Positions 22,521-31,706 of a stretch of 42,273 nt of DNA are shown one piece after another. A model generated the notes under the pieces. It was given only the letters and a program-made list of their open reading frames with translations. It searched no databases and was not told the origin of the DNA. This stretch comes from Mucilaginibacter sp. (GTDB lineage Bacteria; Bacteroidota; Bacteroidia; Sphingobacteriales; Sphingobacteriaceae), in contig JAQBOP010000390.1 in assembly GCA_028287975.1 (NCBI GenBank), forward strand, positions 1 to 42,273, read 5' to 3'. The translations under genes were made by a program, and so were the position numbers. Positions within the stretch are counted from its first letter, which is position 1, and each line of letters begins with the position of its first letter.

Positions 22521-23681
22521 TTAATTAGATGCAGCACTAACCGGATCAGGCGGTGCCGGTTTCGATGGATCATAAACAGCCACTGCTACTCTTGAGTCAG
22601 CGCAACCATAATATAAGAACCATTTCTTTTTAAAATAAACCATACCCTCAATAAATACGGTACCGTTTACATATTGCCCGCTTTTTTCAAATGGTTTCAT
22701 GGGTCGTAAAAAGGGGAGGTCTAACCGTGTTAAAACTTTTGACGGATCGTTACGGTCAAAAAGGGCTTGCCCGGCGCAATAAGAGTTGGCGTTGAACCTG
22801 GTATCGCGGCCGGCAGCAGGTTTGTTTTTTCCGTTGTAGAATAGGATGATCCCATTTTTTGTCATCAATGTAGGCGGCCCGCATTCGGTAAGGTCGCTGT
22901 CAAAATAGCCATCTCTTGGCGACATCAGTTCTTTCAGTTCACCATTAGCATTAACTACCGGAGCCCAGTTAACAAGATCGGTAGAGGTAGCAGCATAAAC
23001 ATGGTGTTCGCCCCAATACAACCAATATTTTCCGTGAGATTTAACAATAACCTGTTTACGGTTAATAATTTGTGTTAAAATGGAAGCAGATTTACTGGCG
23101 ATGTTAAAAAATTTGCCATTGTATGCCTTTTTAAAAATAGGTCCATACTTTTTCCAGTGGATCAGGTCGGTTGATTTAGCAACGCCTAAGCGCGGAACAT
23201 CGCGGTTCCATTCTGTATAAAAAACAACATAAGTGCCGGTTGATGTAACTGCTACCCTTGGATCTTCGCAGCCACCCGGCCATTCATATTTCTTTGCGAT
23301 ATCATTATCCGGGAACAATACCGGGGTCGGCCTTCTTTTATAATTTATTCCGTCAGCACTTTCGGCATAACCTATCCGCGATGTACGAAAACCTATGCCT
23401 GTACCATAAAGATCCTCAGCACGGTACATTACTACAATTTTACCGTTTTTTATTGCCGCGGCGGGGTTAAAGGTGTCATTAGCCTCCCAGGCAACCTTTT
23501 TCTTACTTACAGGATCAAAAAATCTTGAAGCCGTATCGGGCGAAATAATTGGATCGATATTCTCCGAACGTACAAAACCGCCAAATGCCCACTTGGGTAA
23601 TTTGTTTTCTACTTGCTGCGCTAAACAGTTAACAGAAAATGCCAACAGCAGGCCGGCCAATAATATTCTTGTTTTTGTCAT
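22521..23681 (-). CDS. Exported GH130-like beta-mannoside hydrolase/phosphorylase
   Basis: This predicted extracytoplasmic enzyme has a five-bladed propeller fold. GH130 members cleave beta-1,2- or beta-1,4-mannosides by hydrolysis or phosphorolysis. Supporting segments are ANDTFNPAAAIKNGKIVVMYRAED, WPGGCEDPRV (the GH130 hallmark GxEDPR-like motif), LGVAKSTDLIHWKK and ECGPPTLMTKNGIILFYNGK near the C-terminus. The frame opens at 23711, but ATG 23681 gives a standard signal peptide (MTKTRILLAGLLLAFSVNCLAQ), so that start was used (386 aa); ATG 23684 is equally possible. A signal peptide argues for a hydrolase rather than a cytoplasmic phosphorylase. It is the last gene of the SusCD operon and suggests that the locus targets mannosides. 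Confidence 0.82.
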   Translation of the reverse strand: MTKTRILLAGLLLAFSVNCLAQQVENKLPKWAFGGFVRSENIDPIISPDTASRFFDPVSKKKVAWEANDTFNPAAAIKNGKIVVMYRAEDLYGTGIGFRTSRIGYAESADGINYKRRPTPVLFPDNDIAKKYEWPGGCEDPRVAVTSTGTYVVFYTEWNRDVPRLGVAKSTDLIHWKKYGPIFKKAYNGKFFNIASKSASILTQIINRKQVIVKSHGKYWLYWGEHHVYAATSTDLVNWAPVVNANGELKELMSPRDGYFDSDLTECGPPTLMTKNGIILFYNGKNKPAAGRDTRFNANSYCAGQALFDRNDPSKVLTRLDLPFLRPMKPFEKSGQYVNGTVFIEGMVYFKKKWFLYYGCADSRVAVAVYDPSKPAPPDPVSAASN

Positions 23682-23703
23682 CATGTTATAAATATTAAAA
23701 TAT

Positions 23704-23742
23704 CGGAACATTCTGTGATCTTACAGTTCACAAAATGTTCCG
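23704..23742. other. Intercistronic hairpin between the LamG lipoprotein and GH130 genes
   Basis: CGGAACATT (23704-23712) pairs with AATGTTCCG (23734-23742); an inner CTGT/ACAG stem shortens the loop. A seven-T run follows on the plus strand (23744-23750), but the genes here run on the minus strand, where the stem is followed by GATATTTTAAT. It may weaken transcription into GH130, protect a processed mRNA end, or end a plus-strand antisense transcript. Confidence 0.5.
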
Positions 23743-24823: not shown

Positions 24824-26332
24824 TTATAAGCCTAATTTGGGATTACTGTCCCTTTCGCTTTGCGGGATAGGGAAAAATTTATTGGCGTTATAGTTAAATA
24901 ACGGCACATCAGACAAGGCTGAATTTGCATAAGCCGACCCATAACGGATGATGTCAAAAAACCTATGGAATTCAAGTGCCAGTTCTGAGCGTCTTTCCTT
25001 GCGGATAATATCACGTAATTGCGACTGGTCTGTCGTTGTGATATCAGGCAACAAACCTGCCGGCACAGTGCCATATCCTGTCAAAGTCTTGTCAAACAAA
25101 TAGCTTTCCCTTGCGCGTTTTCTTACCCTGTTAAGCGGCGCCAATGCACCTGAGCTATTGCCTGACTCATTTAAAGCTTCGGCTTCGATCAACAACACCT
25201 CAGCGAACCTGATTGCCTGGTAATTTAGATCGCCGTCACCCTTTATGGTAACCGGTATTTCTGATAACGGCTGGCAATCTTTTTTGCTTAAATAGCCGGT
25301 AGTTGTCCAGGTTGGATCAAACGGACTATCAAAATAAGGGTGGCCGGCACGTGCCATAGTATAATCAAGGCGCGGATCATCTACACCCCCGGCTGATTTT
25401 TCAAAATTATTAACCAGGCTTTGTGTCGGATAAAAGAAACCATATCCATTAATAGAGCGTGGCGCGAACCAAACATTCAGATTGTTTCCTTGGAAGGGCG
25501 TTAAACCTGATTTATGTTGTACAGAAAATACACCTTCGCTATTGTTTTTTGTTGCTGCACTAAAATTATCGGAGAACACAGGTAATAGGGTATAGATGCC
25601 AAGGTTATCAACTGCCTGGGCTGTTGATGCTGCTAACGCCCATTTTTGTTCAAAAAGGTATGTTTTAGCTAACAAGGCAAGTGCTGCACCCTTTGTAACA
25701 CGGCCCAGATCTGCACCTTTCCAGCTTGTTGGTAAACCAGCGGCTGCTTCAGTGCAATCTTTTTCAATTTGCGCATAAATAGCTGCTTGAGGCGAAACCG
25801 GTTTTTGTGCTTCTGTAGGCGTTTCTACTTTTAAATGTATTGGAATATTGCCATAGCAGGTGGTTAATACAAAATAGTAGTAAGCCCTTAAAAACTTTAC
25901 TTGCGCTAAAGATTGCTTTTTTACGGTGTCAGATATACCCTGCGTATTTCCGGATAGCCCGTCAGTAACTACATTGCAGGTAAATACACCCTGGAAATAT
26001 CTTTTCCACACCGCCTCAACAGCAGAATTTGATGGATTGATATTAAAATCGTTCACTAGTTGAAAATCGCTCTGGTCGCCCGCGCTGCCGCCTTTTATCG
26101 CATCATCAGATGCTACATCACCCAATACCCAAATAGCATTTGAAGACGCATCTGTAAAGGTTAAAGAAGTATAAGCAGCATTTACAGCAAGGATAGTGTT
26201 AGCATCATTAGTAAAATAATCGGCATTGGTATATTGCCCGGTTATTGGTTGGTTTAATATCTTTTTACATCCTGTAATCGTAAAAAATACCACGGCCAAC
26301 ATTAATATATAATAGTTGTGTTTTGCTTTCAT
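24824..26332 (-). CDS. SusD/RagB family outer-membrane lipoprotein
   Basis: This SusD-like glycan-binding lipoprotein sits as a lid on the SusC channel. It has 502 residues with lipobox TITGC (C22) followed by KKIL. Family features include the N-terminal YFTNDANTILAVNAAYTSL, VKFLRAYYYFVLTTCYGNIP, the TPR-like segment RVTKGAALALLAKTYLFEQKW, YQAIRFAEVLLIEAEALN, and the C-terminal IRKERRSELALEFHRFFDIIRYG with a final PIPQSERDSNPKL. It begins 20 bases after the susC stop, the standard tandem order, and is followed by the LamG lipoprotein. Confidence 0.95.
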   Translation of the reverse strand: MKAKHNYYILMLAVVFFTITGCKKILNQPITGQYTNADYFTNDANTILAVNAAYTSLTFTDASSNAIWVLGDVASDDAIKGGSAGDQSDFQLVNDFNINPSNSAVEAVWKRYFQGVFTCNVVTDGLSGNTQGISDTVKKQSLAQVKFLRAYYYFVLTTCYGNIPIHLKVETPTEAQKPVSPQAAIYAQIEKDCTEAAAGLPTSWKGADLGRVTKGAALALLAKTYLFEQKWALAASTAQAVDNLGIYTLLPVFSDNFSAATKNNSEGVFSVQHKSGLTPFQGNNLNVWFAPRSINGYGFFYPTQSLVNNFEKSAGGVDDPRLDYTMARAGHPYFDSPFDPTWTTTGYLSKKDCQPLSEIPVTIKGDGDLNYQAIRFAEVLLIEAEALNESGNSSGALAPLNRVRKRARESYLFDKTLTGYGTVPAGLLPDITTTDQSQLRDIIRKERRSELALEFHRFFDIIRYGSAYANSALSDVPLFNYNANKFFPIPQSERDSNPKLGL

Positions 26333-26352: not shown

Positions 26353-29300
26353 TTAGAAATTTGCGTTAATACCGGCGGTCAATATAAGTGCCGATGGATA
26401 TGTACCCCAATCAATACCTACTGCTTTTACGCCATCACCTCCATTGTTATCGTTTTGATATTGCTCTGGATCAAGGCCTTTATATTTGGTAAAAGTGAGC
26501 AGGTTTTGCCCGCTTACAAATATCCTCACAGATGATAGCCCAAGTGTTTTTAACGCATTTTTACTTAGCTTATAGCCTAACTGCACATTTTTGAGTTTAA
26601 GGTATGAGCCGCTCTCTAAAAAGCGCGTAGAAGCCTGCTTGTTATTGGCAGCGTCAGACCATGATAGCAATGGCCGGGTATTGCTTGTTCCCGGGCCTGT
26701 CCAGCTTTCGGTAGCTGTTGCCTCGGTTATGTTAAACGGACGATAAAAGCCTTCAAGTTCAGTATTTACCTGATCGTAAATCTTATTGCCATAAACTCCC
26801 TGGAAGAACAGACTTAAATCAAAGTTTTGATAACCGACAGTGGCGGTTAACCCATAGGTTAATTTAGGTATTGCACTGCCCGCAAAAGTGCGGTCATTTT
26901 GATCTATGACACCATCGCCATTAACATCTTTGTACATTACATCGCCCGGACGGATGCCAGGCCCCTGGTAGGCGTGTGTAAATACTTGTTGAGTGTTTTG
27001 AAAGATACCTTCTTGCTGTAACAGATAAAATGAACCAATTGGATGGCCTACAGCTGTACGTGTCGCAAAAATATTATTATCGATGCGGCCTGCAACAATA
27101 ACAGGAGCATCAGCCAGTGACACTACGGTATTTTTCTCGGTTGCAAGGTTACCCGCTATGCCGATATTCCAGTCATCGTTTATTTTGGTACGGTAATTTA
27201 TGTCAAGCTCAAAACCCTGATCACGTACTTTGCCGGCATTGATAAAAGGAACTGAAGCCTGGCCTGCACTGCTGGGCATTGGATACGGCAATAATACGTT
27301 ATTGGTATTTTTAATATAATAATCGGCTGTTATTTGCAGCGCACTGTTAAAAAGGCCAATATCTAAACCAATATCCTCTTGCGTGGTTATTTCCCAATGG
27401 ATATTTGGGTTGCCGATTTTGGTTATTGTATAACCCTGGTTGGTAGTCCCGTTAAAAGGATAATAACTATTTCCTGACAGGGTTGATAGGTAAGCATATG
27501 AGTCTAAGGACCGTTCATTACCTAATTGACCAACGTCAACCCTTAACTTAAGATTTGAAATAGGCTTAATGTCTTTCATGAAATCTTCCTGATCAATACG
27601 CCAGCCTAAAGAGCCGGAGTAAACTGATTTAGATCGGTCAGTAGGGTCAAGTACTGATGAGGCATCCCAGCGGTAATTAAAACTTGCCAGGTACTTATTG
27701 TTATATTGGTAATTAACACGACCAAAGACAGACGAAAGGCTGCGTGAACTTTCGCCGCCTCCGTTAAGTAAGCCGGTTAACGCACCGTTATCAAGATATT
27801 GAAAAGGTGGCGTTTGGTTTACATAGTTAGTACGCGAAGCACTAATGCCCTGCTGATCTTGTTTGATGATCTCTGTACCGGCTAAAAACGTAAAATCGTG
27901 TTTGTCAAATTTCAGATCGTAAGTTGCTGTATTAGTCCAGTTATAATTAAGGTTTTGATTATGCGATTGAGCCAATGACGCCGGTGTGTTGAAATGCCGG
28001 TCGGCACCATAAGTTTCATAAAATTGCTTGTAGTCATTCAATATCAAATTTATGCCGATGTCACTCTTAATTCGCAGGTTTTTTATTGGAGTAAGCTCTG
28101 CAAACACATCACCAAGTACAGTATAATTGTAATTATTATTATCTGTCGATGCGGCTAACTGAACCGGATTAACGCCGTCACCTAAAAAATTACCTAAAGT
28201 TGCATCTTGTTTTGGCAGGTCAATAAACTGGCCGTTAGGTCCATACACCGGTGTGCCTGGTGTGCGGAACAACGCGTAACGTACTACACTTGCTGCGGCA
28301 CCCGAATACCCATCGCCGGATGAGCCAACTACCCTGGTCTTTTCATAACTCAAGTTAACGTTGGTTCCAAATTTGAGGTATTTTGTAGGATTGCTATTTA
28401 TTGCAGTACGCAGGTTATAACGTCTGAAAGATGAGTTTTCGATCAAACCATTCTGACTGAAAATATTGCCTGAAACAATATAATTTGACGTTTCGGTGCC
28501 GCCGCTTACTGATAAATTAATATTAGTTACCGGTGCAGGTTTAAGCGTTTCTTTTAACCAGTTTACATCTGAAAGAGTATGAGCCAGGCTGTCAGAAATA
28601 ATCGGCCTGCCGTCATTTGTGGCTGCAGTGTTATAGGCACTTACGTACTGCGCGTTATTTGCCATTTTTATAAGGTGCGTGGCCGATTGTACGCCTGTAT
28701 ACGCATTCAAACTTAATTTAGCTTTGCCTGAGCTGCCATGTTTGGTAGTAATAATAACTACACCACCGGCCGCGCGGGCTCCGTAAATAGCCGCAGATGA
28801 CGCGTCTTTAAGAATATTAATACTTTCTATATCATCCGGTGCTAATTGATTGATACCGTCGGTTACCGGTGTGCCATCAATCACATAAAGCGGGCTAATC
28901 CCATTAATGGTATTAAGGCCGCGTACCTGTACTGATATACCACTTCCGGGCGCCCCGGTATTTTGTGTTACGGTAACGCCTGCCGCTTTACCTTGCATAA
29001 TTTGGTCTATACCACCAACTGGTAAGCCCGCAAGGTCTTTTGTGCTGATAACCGACACGGCACCTGTCAGATCTTTTTTACGCTGTGTGCCATAACCGGT
29101 AACAATAACTTCATTTAAATTACCTGCATCTTCGGTTAGGGTAATGGTGATCTCTGATCTGCCCGCGGTCTCAACTTCCTGAGTTTTATAGCCGACGTAA
29201 GTAATCACTAATATCGTATTATCAGGTACAGTAACATTAAAATTCCCGTTAGCGTCAGCCTGAGCTATCGAACTGCCGTTTTTAATAGCTATGGTTGCAC

Positions 29301-29724
29301 CGGGCAGCGGCTCGCCCTTTGTATCTACGATCTTACCTTTTATGGTAATATCGGCCGTCGGCGGGGCCGATTGCCGGGTTATCACGATGAGGTTATTATT
29401 TAATATTCTGAATGATAAGCCTGTGTTTTTAAAAGCGTTATCCAGAATTTGAGGTACGGTAACATCTTTAACATCGATGCTTACCTTCCTTTGGGCTATG
29501 GCCTGGTTGTTATATAAAAAAGTATAACTGCTTTTCTGTTCGAGCAGCTCAAATAGCCTGTCGAACTTGACGTTTTGTACAGTTAAGTTTAGTTTGTCTT
29601 GTGAGCGTACCGCCGCAGAAACATGCATTAAGGCGATAAGTATAAAGAATGTTGTTAGTTTCACACACAATAGTATTTTTTTGCCAATAGCAGGGTCAAT
29701 GAAATAACTTAAAGTTTTTTTCAT
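26353..29724 (-). CDS. SusC/RagA TonB-linked outer-membrane transporter with STN signalling domain
   Basis: This outer-membrane TonB-dependent transporter for glycan fragments has 1123 residues. The order is a signal peptide (to about 42), an STN domain (about 47-115, VQNVKFDRLFELLEQKSSYT), a CarboxypepD_reg domain (about 127-212, GKIVDTKGEPLPGATIAIKN), a plug domain (about 213-330) with the SusC hallmarks LNEVIVTGYGTQRKKDLTGA and GRSEITITL upstream, and a beta-barrel ending in an aromatic C-terminal strand (LILTAGINANF). The STN domain is expected in transporters that signal through FecR to an ECF sigma factor, both of which are encoded next door. The predicted substrate class is a mannoside, from the GH130 gene in the operon. 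Confidence 0.95.
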   Translation of the reverse strand: MKKTLSYFIDPAIGKKILLCVKLTTFFILIALMHVSAAVRSQDKLNLTVQNVKFDRLFELLEQKSSYTFLYNNQAIAQRKVSIDVKDVTVPQILDNAFKNTGLSFRILNNNLIVITRQSAPPTADITIKGKIVDTKGEPLPGATIAIKNGSSIAQADANGNFNVTVPDNTILVITYVGYKTQEVETAGRSEITITLTEDAGNLNEVIVTGYGTQRKKDLTGAVSVISTKDLAGLPVGGIDQIMQGKAAGVTVTQNTGAPGSGISVQVRGLNTINGISPLYVIDGTPVTDGINQLAPDDIESINILKDASSAAIYGARAAGGVVIITTKHGSSGKAKLSLNAYTGVQSATHLIKMANNAQYVSAYNTAATNDGRPIISDSLAHTLSDVNWLKETLKPAPVTNINLSVSGGTETSNYIVSGNIFSQNGLIENSSFRRYNLRTAINSNPTKYLKFGTNVNLSYEKTRVVGSSGDGYSGAAASVVRYALFRTPGTPVYGPNGQFIDLPKQDATLGNFLGDGVNPVQLAASTDNNNYNYTVLGDVFAELTPIKNLRIKSDIGINLILNDYKQFYETYGADRHFNTPASLAQSHNQNLNYNWTNTATYDLKFDKHDFTFLAGTEIIKQDQQGISASRTNYVNQTPPFQYLDNGALTGLLNGGGESSRSLSSVFGRVNYQYNNKYLASFNYRWDASSVLDPTDRSKSVYSGSLGWRIDQEDFMKDIKPISNLKLRVDVGQLGNERSLDSYAYLSTLSGNSYYPFNGTTNQGYTITKIGNPNIHWEITTQEDIGLDIGLFNSALQITADYYIKNTNNVLLPYPMPSSAGQASVPFINAGKVRDQGFELDINYRTKINDDWNIGIAGNLATEKNTVVSLADAPVIVAGRIDNNIFATRTAVGHPIGSFYLLQQEGIFQNTQQVFTHAYQGPGIRPGDVMYKDVNGDGVIDQNDRTFAGSAIPKLTYGLTATVGYQNFDLSLFFQGVYGNKIYDQVNTELEGFYRPFNITEATATESWTGPGTSNTRPLLSWSDAANNKQASTRFLESGSYLKLKNVQLGYKLSKNALKTLGLSSVRIFVSGQNLLTFTKYKGLDPEQYQNDNNGGDGVKAVGIDWGTYPSALILTAGINANF

Positions 29725-29840
29725 ACTTTTGAATTGTTGAGGTTAATAAAATCTAAAAAAGCCTGGTATCCAGTCAGATATTTGGGTAGCATCGGATAAC
29801 CCCAATAGAGGAAGTGTTCCCGCACTTCCTTGTTTTTTTT
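29724..29840 (+). ncRNA. Predicted antisense small RNA over the susC leader
   Basis: On the plus strand a TACTTTTG box (29724-29731, perfect TAnnTTTG) is followed about 80 bases later by a textbook terminator ending at 29840. No plus-strand gene lies in between or ends there. The predicted transcript of about 100 bases (29738-29840) contains a CTGG-TAT-CCAG hairpin (29763-29773), a TTGGG/CCCAA stem (about 29781-29805) and the terminator stem. It would be antisense to the susC 5' leader and end before fecR. Antisense RNAs at susC starts are known in Bacteroides (DonS), which makes a repressor of susC plausible. No TTG -33 element is seen, so the promoter is only half supported. Confidence 0.45.
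29809..29840 (+). terminator. Plus-strand intrinsic terminator between fecR and susC
   Basis: AGGAAGTG (29809-29816), loop TTCCCG, CACTTCCT (29823-29830), then TGTTTTTTTT (29831-29840). The eight-T tail lies on the plus strand only; on the minus strand, where both flanking genes are transcribed, the stem is preceded by A residues and followed by CTCTATTGG. It therefore ends a plus-strand RNA. Confidence 0.75.
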
Positions 29841-29924
29841 GAGGTTAAAAAGCTGTCGTGAAATAAATTTACGTCATGTGGTTTTTCCTTTCTTCTCCTT
29901 TAAGTTTATGGTTAATATGGCTGG

Positions 29925-31025
29925 TTACCATATATGTATTTGATTGTTTTTTATGCTATAGTGAAATGGCTCGGTAAATTGCAGATCGCGCATTACCTCG
30001 TTAATATCTTCATCTTTAAAAGCCCCGGTAAACTGTTTTGCCGAATAGTTATCGTTGTCAAATTTTATTTCAACATTGTACCAGCGTTCCAGTTGCCTGG
30101 CCAGGTCATTAAAATTCTTTTTTTTAAATATCAGCTTATCGCTTACCCAGGCTGTTTCGGTAATTGCGGCGTCGGGTAATTGGGGTAATAAAGTTGTTTT
30201 GTCAGCAGCTACTGAAAGAGAATCGACCGGCTTATTCTTAACTGCAAGTTTTGTTTTAAATGACACAGTAGCATTAGTGTTGATAGTAACCTTCTCGTTA
30301 GGATATAAGATCACGTTATCGCCGGGCTTATCATTATTTAAAACTTCAACCTTTCCGCGGATAAGCGTGGTTTCCATGTAAGCATCGCCCTGGTAGGCCT
30401 TAACATTAAAAGCTGTACCCAATACCACCACATTTAGCTTGCCTGCATGTACTATAAAAGGATGCTCAGTATCGTGTTTGACGTCAAAATAAGCTTCGCC
30501 ATTTAAGGTCACTTCTCTTTTGCCATCAACCAATAAATTTTCGGCATATTTAATAGTCGAACCCGAGTTGAGCCAAACTGTAGTGCCGTCAGGTAGGGTA
30601 GTATGTATGCGTTTACCATAGCGTGTGGCCAATTGCTGCTGTGTATTTGTCGGCGCAGTTTTAAAACGTTTTAAGATGATTGCACCTGCAGTAAATAATA
30701 CAAGTACAGATGCAGCAACCATCCACAATGTTGGCCGTTTGCTGCTTAATGGCGTAGGTTCATGATTAAAAATATGTCTTTCCATAAACCGGCCTTCATT
30801 GGCTAACGAATAGTCCAGCTTTTTCAACCCTCTTTCAAGTGCACCTCGTTCTTCTATTGAGGCAGCTACCGGCGTGTCCAGCTTTAGCCGTTTTATGTTA
30901 CCATAATCGGCCCTTAATTCAGGCCGGGCAAGAAAAATAAGTTCCAGTTCATCAACTTCCTCCGGTGAAATATCACCCGATACCGACCGCGCACTTAAAA
31001 ACCATACTCTTTCTTCTGATGTCAT
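29925..31025 (-). CDS. FecR family anti-sigma factor with DUF4974
   Basis: This inner-membrane anti-sigma factor holds the ECF sigma factor until the SusC STN domain signals across the periplasm. The frame opens at 31049; ATG 31025 (MTSEERVWFLSARSVSG) gives the normal N-terminus (366 aa). An N-terminal cytoplasmic sigma-binding region is followed by one transmembrane helix (about 100-118, LWMVAASVLVLFTAGAIIL), the FecR domain (GKRIHTTLPDGTTVWLNSGS, NGEAYFDVKHDTEHPFIVHA, VLGTAFNVKAY) and a C-terminal DUF4974 domain (NFNDLARQLERWYNVEIKFD, ending HYSIKNNQIHIW). It is divergent from the sigma gene and upstream of susC, 200 bases apart. Confidence 0.94.
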   Translation of the reverse strand: MTSEERVWFLSARSVSGDISPEEVDELELIFLARPELRADYGNIKRLKLDTPVAASIEERGALERGLKKLDYSLANEGRFMERHIFNHEPTPLSSKRPTLWMVAASVLVLFTAGAIILKRFKTAPTNTQQQLATRYGKRIHTTLPDGTTVWLNSGSTIKYAENLLVDGKREVTLNGEAYFDVKHDTEHPFIVHAGKLNVVVLGTAFNVKAYQGDAYMETTLIRGKVEVLNNDKPGDNVILYPNEKVTINTNATVSFKTKLAVKNKPVDSLSVAADKTTLLPQLPDAAITETAWVSDKLIFKKKNFNDLARQLERWYNVEIKFDNDNYSAKQFTGAFKDEDINEVMRDLQFTEPFHYSIKNNQIHIW

Positions 31026-31097
31026 AATAGTAAGACACAGAAAAGTCAAAATCCCCCCAAAACAAAATATATTTTTTTAAAACGTTTTTTACGCCGA

Positions 31098-31154: not shown

Positions 31155-31706
31155 ATGCAAGTTATCCTTCATGAAGAATTAAGTCATTCTGCGTTGCATG
31201 ATGAACAGGTCTTTAAAGAACTGTATAGGGAGTACTTTGTGAAGTTATATAGGTTTGCAGTCTCGCTCGTACATAGCCGGGAATCAGCCGAAGAAATTGT
31301 ACATGATGTATTAATTAATCTTTGGAAAAAAAGAAGCTCTTTTCAGGAGATAGAAAATTTAAATACCTATCTGTACGTGTCTGTAAAAAACTTGTCGCTT
31401 AACTATTTAAGAAATCAGGGTAACCGGATTTATGTTGATGATGAGGTTCTGTACAATAAAACTGCTTATTGCACCGTCGATCCTGAAAGTGTAATGATCA
31501 GCAAGGAAAAGGTAGAAGCCCTGAATTATTTTATTAATAACCTGCCTTTAAAGTGCAAGCTTATATTTAAGCTTATTAAAGACGATGGTATGAAATATAA
31601 AGAGGTTGCAGCACTTTTAAATATATCGGTAAAAACTGTCGAAAATCAGTTAGTGATAGCTATAAAAAAAATATCCGTAGCTATCAGAAAAAGCGATGCG
31701 CTTTAA
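31155..31706 (+). CDS. ECF RNA polymerase sigma factor of the PUL
   Basis: This cytoplasmic sigma-70 family factor has 183 residues and only regions 2 and 4, typical of FecI-like ECF factors in Bacteroidota. Region 2 shows FKELYREYFVKLYRFA and SAEEIVHDVLINLWKKR, then YLYVSVKNLSLNYLRNQ. Region 4 shows INNLPLKCKLIFKL and the recognition helix in YKEVAALLNISVKTVENQ. It is transcribed away from fecR. The expected circuit is substrate to SusC-STN to FecR to this factor to susC transcription, which agrees with the lack of a housekeeping promoter motif before susC. Confidence 0.95.
   Translation: MQVILHEELSHSALHDEQVFKELYREYFVKLYRFAVSLVHSRESAEEIVHDVLINLWKKRSSFQEIENLNTYLYVSVKNLSLNYLRNQGNRIYVDDEVLYNKTAYCTVDPESVMISKEKVEALNYFINNLPLKCKLIFKLIKDDGMKYKEVAALLNISVKTVENQLVIAIKKISVAIRKSDAL

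Follow-up and report, generated by a model that had tools for sequence, protein, structure and literature searches.

DonS and related RNAs of Bacteroides are PUL-associated cis-antisense RNAs (Cao et al. 2016, as reported in PMC7366714, PMC10994844 and PMC11697453; all PMC sources are cited here from excerpts). The members of this family are 78–128 nt long and antisense to susC homologs (PMC7366714). In B. fragilis, DonS acts as a repressor of its PUL (PMC7366714, PMC11697453), by a mechanism described as unknown (PMC11697453). In B. thetaiotaomicron there are 32 PUL-associated antisense RNAs, some of which are anti-correlated and some correlated with the PUL (PMC10994844). PULs for host glycans are typically under the control of an ECF sigma factor and an anti-sigma factor (PMC11697453).

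Here, a sigma/FecR-controlled susC locus of Mucilaginibacter sp. (Sphingobacteriaceae) is compared with these systems. The window, i.e. the whole stretch of DNA that was analysed, comprises 42,273 nucleotides; it is a single contig from a draft assembly of 423 contigs. Judged from sequence comparison, the plus strand at 29736–29840 very likely carries the gene for a structured cis-antisense RNA with a length of about 100 nt and its own terminator, most likely lowering the expression of susCD in cis.

Organization of the locus

The genes surrounding the predicted RNA are the following.

24824–26332, minus strand: susD (Pfam SusD_RagB)
26353–29724, minus strand: susC (SusC/RagA; TIGR04056; Pfam STN with 3.7e-11, Plug and CarbopepD_reg_2)
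29925–31049, minus strand: fecR, anti-sigma factor (Pfam FecR and FecR_C)
31155–31706, plus strand: ECF sigma factor, divergent from fecR (Pfam Sigma70_r2/r4_2; TIGR02985)

The gap between fecR and susC has a length of exactly 200 bases. SusC of the window is composed of an N-terminal STN domain, CarbopepD, Plug and the beta-barrel. Downstream of susC, Pfam and NCBIfam profiles identify susD and a GH130 protein. The GH130 protein of the susC operon (22521–23711) scores above the NCBIfam cut-off for the beta-1,2-mannosidase BT3780. This match suggests a mannan- or N-glycan-like substrate of the operon.

Terminator and putative promoter box in the fecR-susC gap

The elements of the predicted RNA are all located on the plus strand.

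29724–29731, plus strand: TAnnTTTG -7 box, TACTTTTG, opposite to the susC ATG, with which it overlaps
29736–29840, plus strand: predicted antisense RNA of about 101–105 nt, ends predicted from the box and the T run
29735–29745, plus strand: 5' strand of helix P1 (consensus fold of the orthologs, columns 12–22 paired with 80–90; column 17 unpaired)
29797–29807, plus strand: 3' strand of helix P1 (same fold), directly before the terminator
29808–29831, plus strand: stem-loop of the intrinsic terminator (P3), 10 pairs, loop of 4, -12.9 kcal/mol
29833–29840, plus strand: eight-T tail in the sequence, with one G between stem and tail

The terminator scan of the 200-base gap yielded one terminator on the plus strand and none on the minus strand. 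Its direction is against both susC and fecR. The plus-strand terminator with an eight-T tail between two minus-strand genes (29808–29840) and the preceding TAnnTTTG box (29724–29731) had been pointed out in a first-pass annotation of this DNA, and both are present. The +1 position was set 12 bases after the box T, with the box taken as -12 to -5 relative to +1 (PMC9723704), and the 3' end of the RNA was placed in the T run. With these predicted ends the RNA is fully complementary to positions of about -12 to -116 of the susC leader. The promoter is half supported, since the box is present and a -33 TTG element, sought upstream of the box in 68 loci, was not found.

No plus-strand ORF of at least 80 aa was found between 24000 and 29933. 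A terminator serving a plus-strand protein gene was rejected, as this region upstream of it contains no such ORF.

Folded as a single sequence, 29724–29840 has an energy of -29.1 kcal/mol (z -2.54), and 2 of 200 shuffles are equally good. In the surrounding 12 kb, 14 terminator-like sites were found with 11.5 expected, which is about chance. As the fold is only moderately unusual and terminator-like sites occur regionally at about chance level, the case rests on conservation.

Orthologs in Mucilaginibacter

The gap is kept at 75–100% identity over most of its length in 10 of 149 genomes of the genus, including the window genome; this count leaves out shorter, weaker matches in other genomes. 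TAnnTTTG is kept in all ten orthologs, with variation at the nn positions. Nine of the ten pairs of the terminator stem are identical in 10/10 orthologs, the outermost pair varies, and a T-rich tail follows the stem in every one of them. The terminator stem is nearly invariant in the orthologs and uninformative on the strand. Across the 149 genomes, this combination of stem, loop and tail is present in single copy in the same ten, always at the window locus and nowhere else.

The consensus fold of the ten orthologs has an energy of -19.3 on the antisense strand and -12.7 on the sense strand. The conserved internal element is the long-range helix P1, which pairs 29735–29745 with 29797–29807 and in the window starts within 1 nt of the predicted +1. 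Two further hairpins, giving three hairpins in a row, had been proposed at first pass. This arrangement has to be replaced by P1 and the terminator, with an additional variable hairpin in the paralog group described below; the window itself has only a weak internal hairpin.

When all 11 positions of P1 are counted, 93 of 110 cells are paired on the plus strand and 84 of 110 on the minus strand, with 16 G-U versus 7 A-C cells. Because these are the values with column 17 included, the strand signal of the ortholog group alone is modest. Without column 17, 92/100 cells are paired on the plus strand and 76/100 on the minus strand.

Survey of fecR-susC gaps

The genome of the window contains 22 FecR-type loci. 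In the 19 gaps that follow a fecR, an antisense terminator is present 15 times and a sense terminator never (0/19). The next ORF is not susC in one of these 15 gaps (L105).

For the family, 19 Sphingobacteriaceae genomes were sampled from the FecR matches listed, and gaps of at least 60 bases were scored. From 175 loci, 4 without a FecR ORF and 8 more without susC were dropped, followed by 23 that were either duplicated or lacked a usable ATG. Among the remaining 140 loci, 11 had gaps below 60 bases and were left unscored. Antisense terminators are present in 98 of the 129 sampled gaps and sense terminators in none, compared to 3.5 in dinucleotide shuffles; in 31 gaps no terminator passes the threshold. 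At first pass, a lack of conservation of stem and T-tail in related susC loci had been named as refuting the RNA; the comparison did not refute it.

TAnnTTTG occurs 114 times antisense and twice sense in the 129 sampled gap stretches. It is located at the susC start in 77 gaps and missing there in 52. The box overlaps with the context of the start codon, for which the first ATG of susC was used. Its register relative to this ATG is 0 in 40 gaps, +4 in 27 and -1 in 10. A plain start-codon signal is unlikely, because the box is kept while its register relative to the ATG differs. In a control set of 400 other ORF starts, TAnnTTTG was found in 27, a set that is not fully independent because 25 of these 27 come from loci that were retrieved through this element or through FecR. 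The susC profile is matched by 26 of the 27 motif-bearing ORFs, leaving a single clear non-susC.

On the sense strand, a dyad search of the gaps for an ECF promoter motif gave nothing clear. A Shine-Dalgarno-like AAGGAGG upstream of the hairpin was rejected as a sense-strand element: in most of the 30 loci with the motif it forms the last part of the fecR coding region.

Covariation and strand of helix P1

Alignment A3 consists of 26 sequences of the L109 paralog group, taken from 30 loci. L435, L442, L445 and L446 were excluded, since no pair of box and terminator with the required spacing was found in them. In the whole structure 94.5% of the cells are paired, compared to at most 50.7% when the structure is slid along the alignment. 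This value is reached by 0 of 500 shuffles, in a test where related rows can beat such shuffles even without structure. Changes on both sides are observed in 13 of 19 pairs, and in P1 alone in 8 of 11.

P1 begins at the predicted +1 (column 13). Its cells are paired to 94.3% on the antisense strand and to 77.0% on the sense strand, and on the antisense strand there are 52 G-U versus 3 A-C cells. Covariation, mainly that of the paralogs, supports P1 as a putative helix between the predicted 5' end and the segment that precedes the terminator. The 5' strand of P1 (UUUGGGUUAA) is more conserved than the partner strand (A3 columns 15–24 compared to 95–104), as if it were under a second constraint, e.g. 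from pairing in trans or from the part of the sense leader close to the susC start.

The two P1 segments are some 50–75 bases apart. In 68 loci the arms have a pairing energy of -10.9 with their cognate and -7.9 with permuted partners (z -9.8), and permutation within genomes gives z -7.9 (57 loci). The corresponding segments of the sense strand reach z -4.7 (68 loci) and -3.9 (within genomes), and a control segment pair z -4.2. Since the sense segments and the control pair also score, part of the P1 signal is background.

The terminator loops of many paralogs appear by eye to share a UGyUnnnArCA-like core (e.g. UGCUUCCAACA, UGUUGCAGCA) on different stems.

Searches with covariance models

Model R1 was built from the orthologs of the window. 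It matches 15 of the 26 members of the A3 paralog group at E <=1, seven of them below 0.05. Model R2 was built from A3 without the window sequence or its orthologs; the L420 row of A3 is a paralog from the same genome. The sole R2 match in the window is 29724–29840 on the plus strand (E 1.2e-6). In the genome of the window, R2 gives ten matches at E < 0.02, and eight of these are antisense in fecR-susC gaps. Another (C182:1239) is located after a fecR and before a 78-codon ORF that is not susC. The tenth precedes a susC without fecR, which has a protease-like gene upstream. Two weaker matches (E 1.0 and 1.6) are not at a susC start. C332 and C385:5695, two of the four own-genome gaps missed by the terminator scan, were recovered by R2.

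In 60 Sphingobacteriaceae loci outside the genus, R2 gives 30 matches at E <=1 in 29 loci (19 below 0.01), all on the strand opposite to fecR. In seven of the matched loci the terminator scan had found nothing. Rfam contains no family matching the window at gathering scores, and a looser Rfam search of 10 loci gave one match at chance level.

On contig C182 two copies of the RNA are present 4.3 kb apart, L105/L453 (1239–1361) and L455 (1501–1626 on the minus strand, 1626 onward on the plus strand). The 78-codon ORF of this contig begins with MNFYTLFN, like the STN-type susC 4.3 kb further on. The arrangement resembles the outcome of a gene insertion that also duplicated the leader.

Association with STN-type susC and occurrence beyond the family

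From 43 named susC loci, five that are apparently cut at a contig end were left out, and 38 were used as controls and orthologs. A terminator together with a box at the susC start is present in 7/7 orthologs and in 0/31 susC apparently without STN; the latter were judged by their short N-terminus, two of them having an unclear start. R2 likewise matches 7/7 orthologs and 0/31 others. Among the 31 there are one weak terminator 242 bases upstream and four sense terminators. The antisense terminator, the box, the predicted fold of the antisense strand and the place opposite an STN-type susC leader are supported by these comparisons.

The wider set comprised 116 loci, of which 16 were dropped (1 without FecR, 14 without susC, 1 duplicate); 31 of the remaining 100 have gaps below 60 bases. 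Among the sampled loci, antisense terminators are present in 22/28 gaps of Bacteroides (sense 0) and in 7/12 gaps of Phocaeicola (sense 2/12). The sampled gaps of other families have them in 9/12 (f4), 4/7 (f2) and 1/1 (f11), and none was found in f8 (0/3), f13 (0/2), f16 (0/1), f18 (0/2) and f20 (0/1). The P1 arms of 22 Bacteroidaceae loci, with slightly different segment borders, give z -6.6 on the antisense and -1.3 on the sense strand. R2 matches 12 of 69 Bacteroides and Phocaeicola loci at the gap, all antisense and mostly weakly (best E 0.0005). One further Bacteroides match (E 0.53) lies outside the gap. From the gap survey, the permutation and the R2 matches it follows that Sphingobacteriaceae and Bacteroidaceae share the layout and, as a group, P1. 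The sigma/FecR setting had been regarded at first pass as a difference from DonS. Probably it is none, because host-glycan PULs are typically controlled by an ECF sigma and an anti-sigma factor (PMC11697453) and because the layout is shared by the Bacteroides fecR-susC gaps.

A candidate micro-ORF in the susC leader

Upstream of the hairpin on the sense strand, a very short ORF is present.

29869–29877, minus (sense) strand: micro-ORF ATG ACG TAA, a two-codon ORF in 10/10 orthologs

Nine of the ten orthologs have ATG-ACN-stop with a varying third base and one has ATG-AAA-stop; all three stop codons occur. Micro-ORFs of 2–20 codons between the fecR stop codon and the hairpin are found in 63 of 72 gaps of the family (32.0 +- 3.5 in shuffles) and in 23 of 26 gaps of the Bacteroidaceae (10.5 +- 2.1 in shuffles). 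There is no such enrichment in f2/f4 (5/9, 4.5 expected). In the L109 paralog group, a micro-ORF M-x-x-x-L-(R/Q) is present in 17/26.

The candidate micro-ORF may be a DNA motif that just happens to contain an ATG. Tentatively, and with considerable doubt, the antisense RNA and a translated leader micro-ORF could form one switch at STN-type susC across Bacteroidota. Ribosomes on the minigene, just upstream of the region covered by the antisense RNA, would then decide between susC loading and shut-off. If so, an outer-membrane transporter that reports its cargo would be controlled jointly by a sigma factor, an antisense RNA and leader translation.

Proposed mechanism and alternative explanations

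At first pass, the susC leader had been proposed to face a structured antisense RNA of about 100 nt, and this is supported by the terminator enrichment, the box, the covariation, which fits the antisense strand better, and the R2 match. Its putative promoter box would sit on the susC start codon, and transcription would end at the RNA's own terminator before fecR. The 5' nucleotides of the RNA would be closed in P1 against the stretch preceding the terminator. As long as the sigma factor is idle, the antisense RNA would lower the expression of susCD in cis. Possible routes are pairing with the leader next to the ribosome site, marking of the mRNA for cleavage or collision of polymerases. Since the predicted RNA covers the leader to about -12 and not the start codon, it would be compatible with each of them, be it a block of ribosome loading, cleavage of the duplex by an RNase or a collision of polymerases. 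The STN domain of SusC may signal via FecR, leading to release of the sigma factor, and strong susC transcription across the antisense promoter could then override the antisense RNA. Repression is not a given, since some antisense RNAs of B. thetaiotaomicron PULs correlate positively with susC (PMC10994844).

A simpler role would be that of an insulator, in which the terminator merely keeps stray antisense transcription out of fecR, with no function for the RNA in between. The orientation and place of the terminator suit this role, and most antisense start sites of B. thetaiotaomicron lead to short, weak transcripts that are possibly noise (PMC7366714). However, an insulator requires the terminator alone, yet P1 is kept by compensatory changes between distant segments, and the module is associated with the STN type of susC. 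An insulator is therefore quite improbable. The structure might instead belong to the susC mRNA, as a stability hairpin or attenuator in the sense leader, and the T run would be a mere A run in the mRNA. The hairpin is able to form on both strands, the micro-ORF precedes it on the sense strand, and in 7/10 orthologs an A-C cell in one antisense P1 column corresponds to G-U in sense. This is outweighed by the G-U cells of P1 in the paralog group (52 antisense, 3 the other way) and by the consensus fold, which is better on the antisense strand (-19.3 versus -12.7). Furthermore, none of the 129 sampled family gaps has a sense terminator, although 2/12 of Phocaeicola do, and the P1 permutation in Bacteroidaceae is clear on the antisense strand only (z -6.6 versus -1.3). 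A function in the sense leader thus appears very unlikely.

The antisense RNA could also act mainly in trans, on several susC leaders or on other mRNAs. One RNA could pair with several leaders, because in the paralog group the partner strand of P1 is less conserved than the 5' strand (UUUGGGUUAA type); moreover, the FopS RNAs of B. thetaiotaomicron act in trans on susC starts (PMC11697453). On the other hand, 9/10 of the best own-genome matches lie opposite a susC leader, and the conservation of the 5' strand could be due simply to its complementary site on the sense strand close to the start codon. Action mainly in trans is thus considered unlikely. Similar stems are present at many own-genome loci and one leader copy on C182 precedes a non-susC ORF, as might be the case for a dispersed repeat or mobile element. 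Against such an origin, 9/10 strong model matches are located before susC starts, and the stems differ in sequence while pairing is kept. A dispersed repeat was ruled out, as the pattern of the window locus occurs once per genome, and the probability of a repeat or mobile element is close to nil.

With the cis-antisense RNA as the preferred reading, the antisense RNAs known from Bacteroides would become an apparently standard part of sigma/FecR-controlled susC operons, at least in Sphingobacteriaceae and Bacteroidaceae. The proposed fold and the models R1 and R2 find members in the genus and the family, and weakly in Bacteroides. The RNA is predicted to be carried by transporters with an STN signalling domain. 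This would offer a testable mechanism for the silencing of unused importers in bacteria with dozens of glycan importers.

Comparison with known systems

In IstR-1/tisB and Sok/hok, an antisense RNA is directed against a leader that also bears a small ORF or a ribosome loading site. Both systems control toxins. The operon of the window encodes a transporter, and the likeness is one of layout only.

FopS and GibS of B. thetaiotaomicron are small RNAs directed at translation starts, which in the case of FopS are those of susC (PMC11697453). They are trans-acting and about 65–70 nt long, with a single-stranded 5' seed followed by a terminator, whereas the 5' end of the window RNA is predicted to be closed in P1. 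The literature search, which left most subscription papers outside (Cao et al. 2016 included), yielded neither a description of a comparable RNA from Sphingobacteriaceae nor one of a micro-ORF in a susC leader.

The closest likeness is to DonS, which is compared here by its description in the excerpts and belongs to a different order than the window RNA (Sphingobacteriales). Like the DonS-like RNAs, the window RNA is both divergent to and antisense of the leader of a PUL susC. Its predicted length of 101–105 nt, based on the predicted ends, lies within the range of 78–128 nt (PMC7366714). A DonS-like RNA would be expected to have its own promoter and intrinsic terminator; the window RNA has the terminator and the -7 box, and a -33 element was not found. 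Additionally, the antisense terminator is present in fecR-susC gaps of Bacteroides, frequently accompanied by the box, and P1 is supported for them as a group. The predicted RNA is of the DonS kind and probably represses susC.
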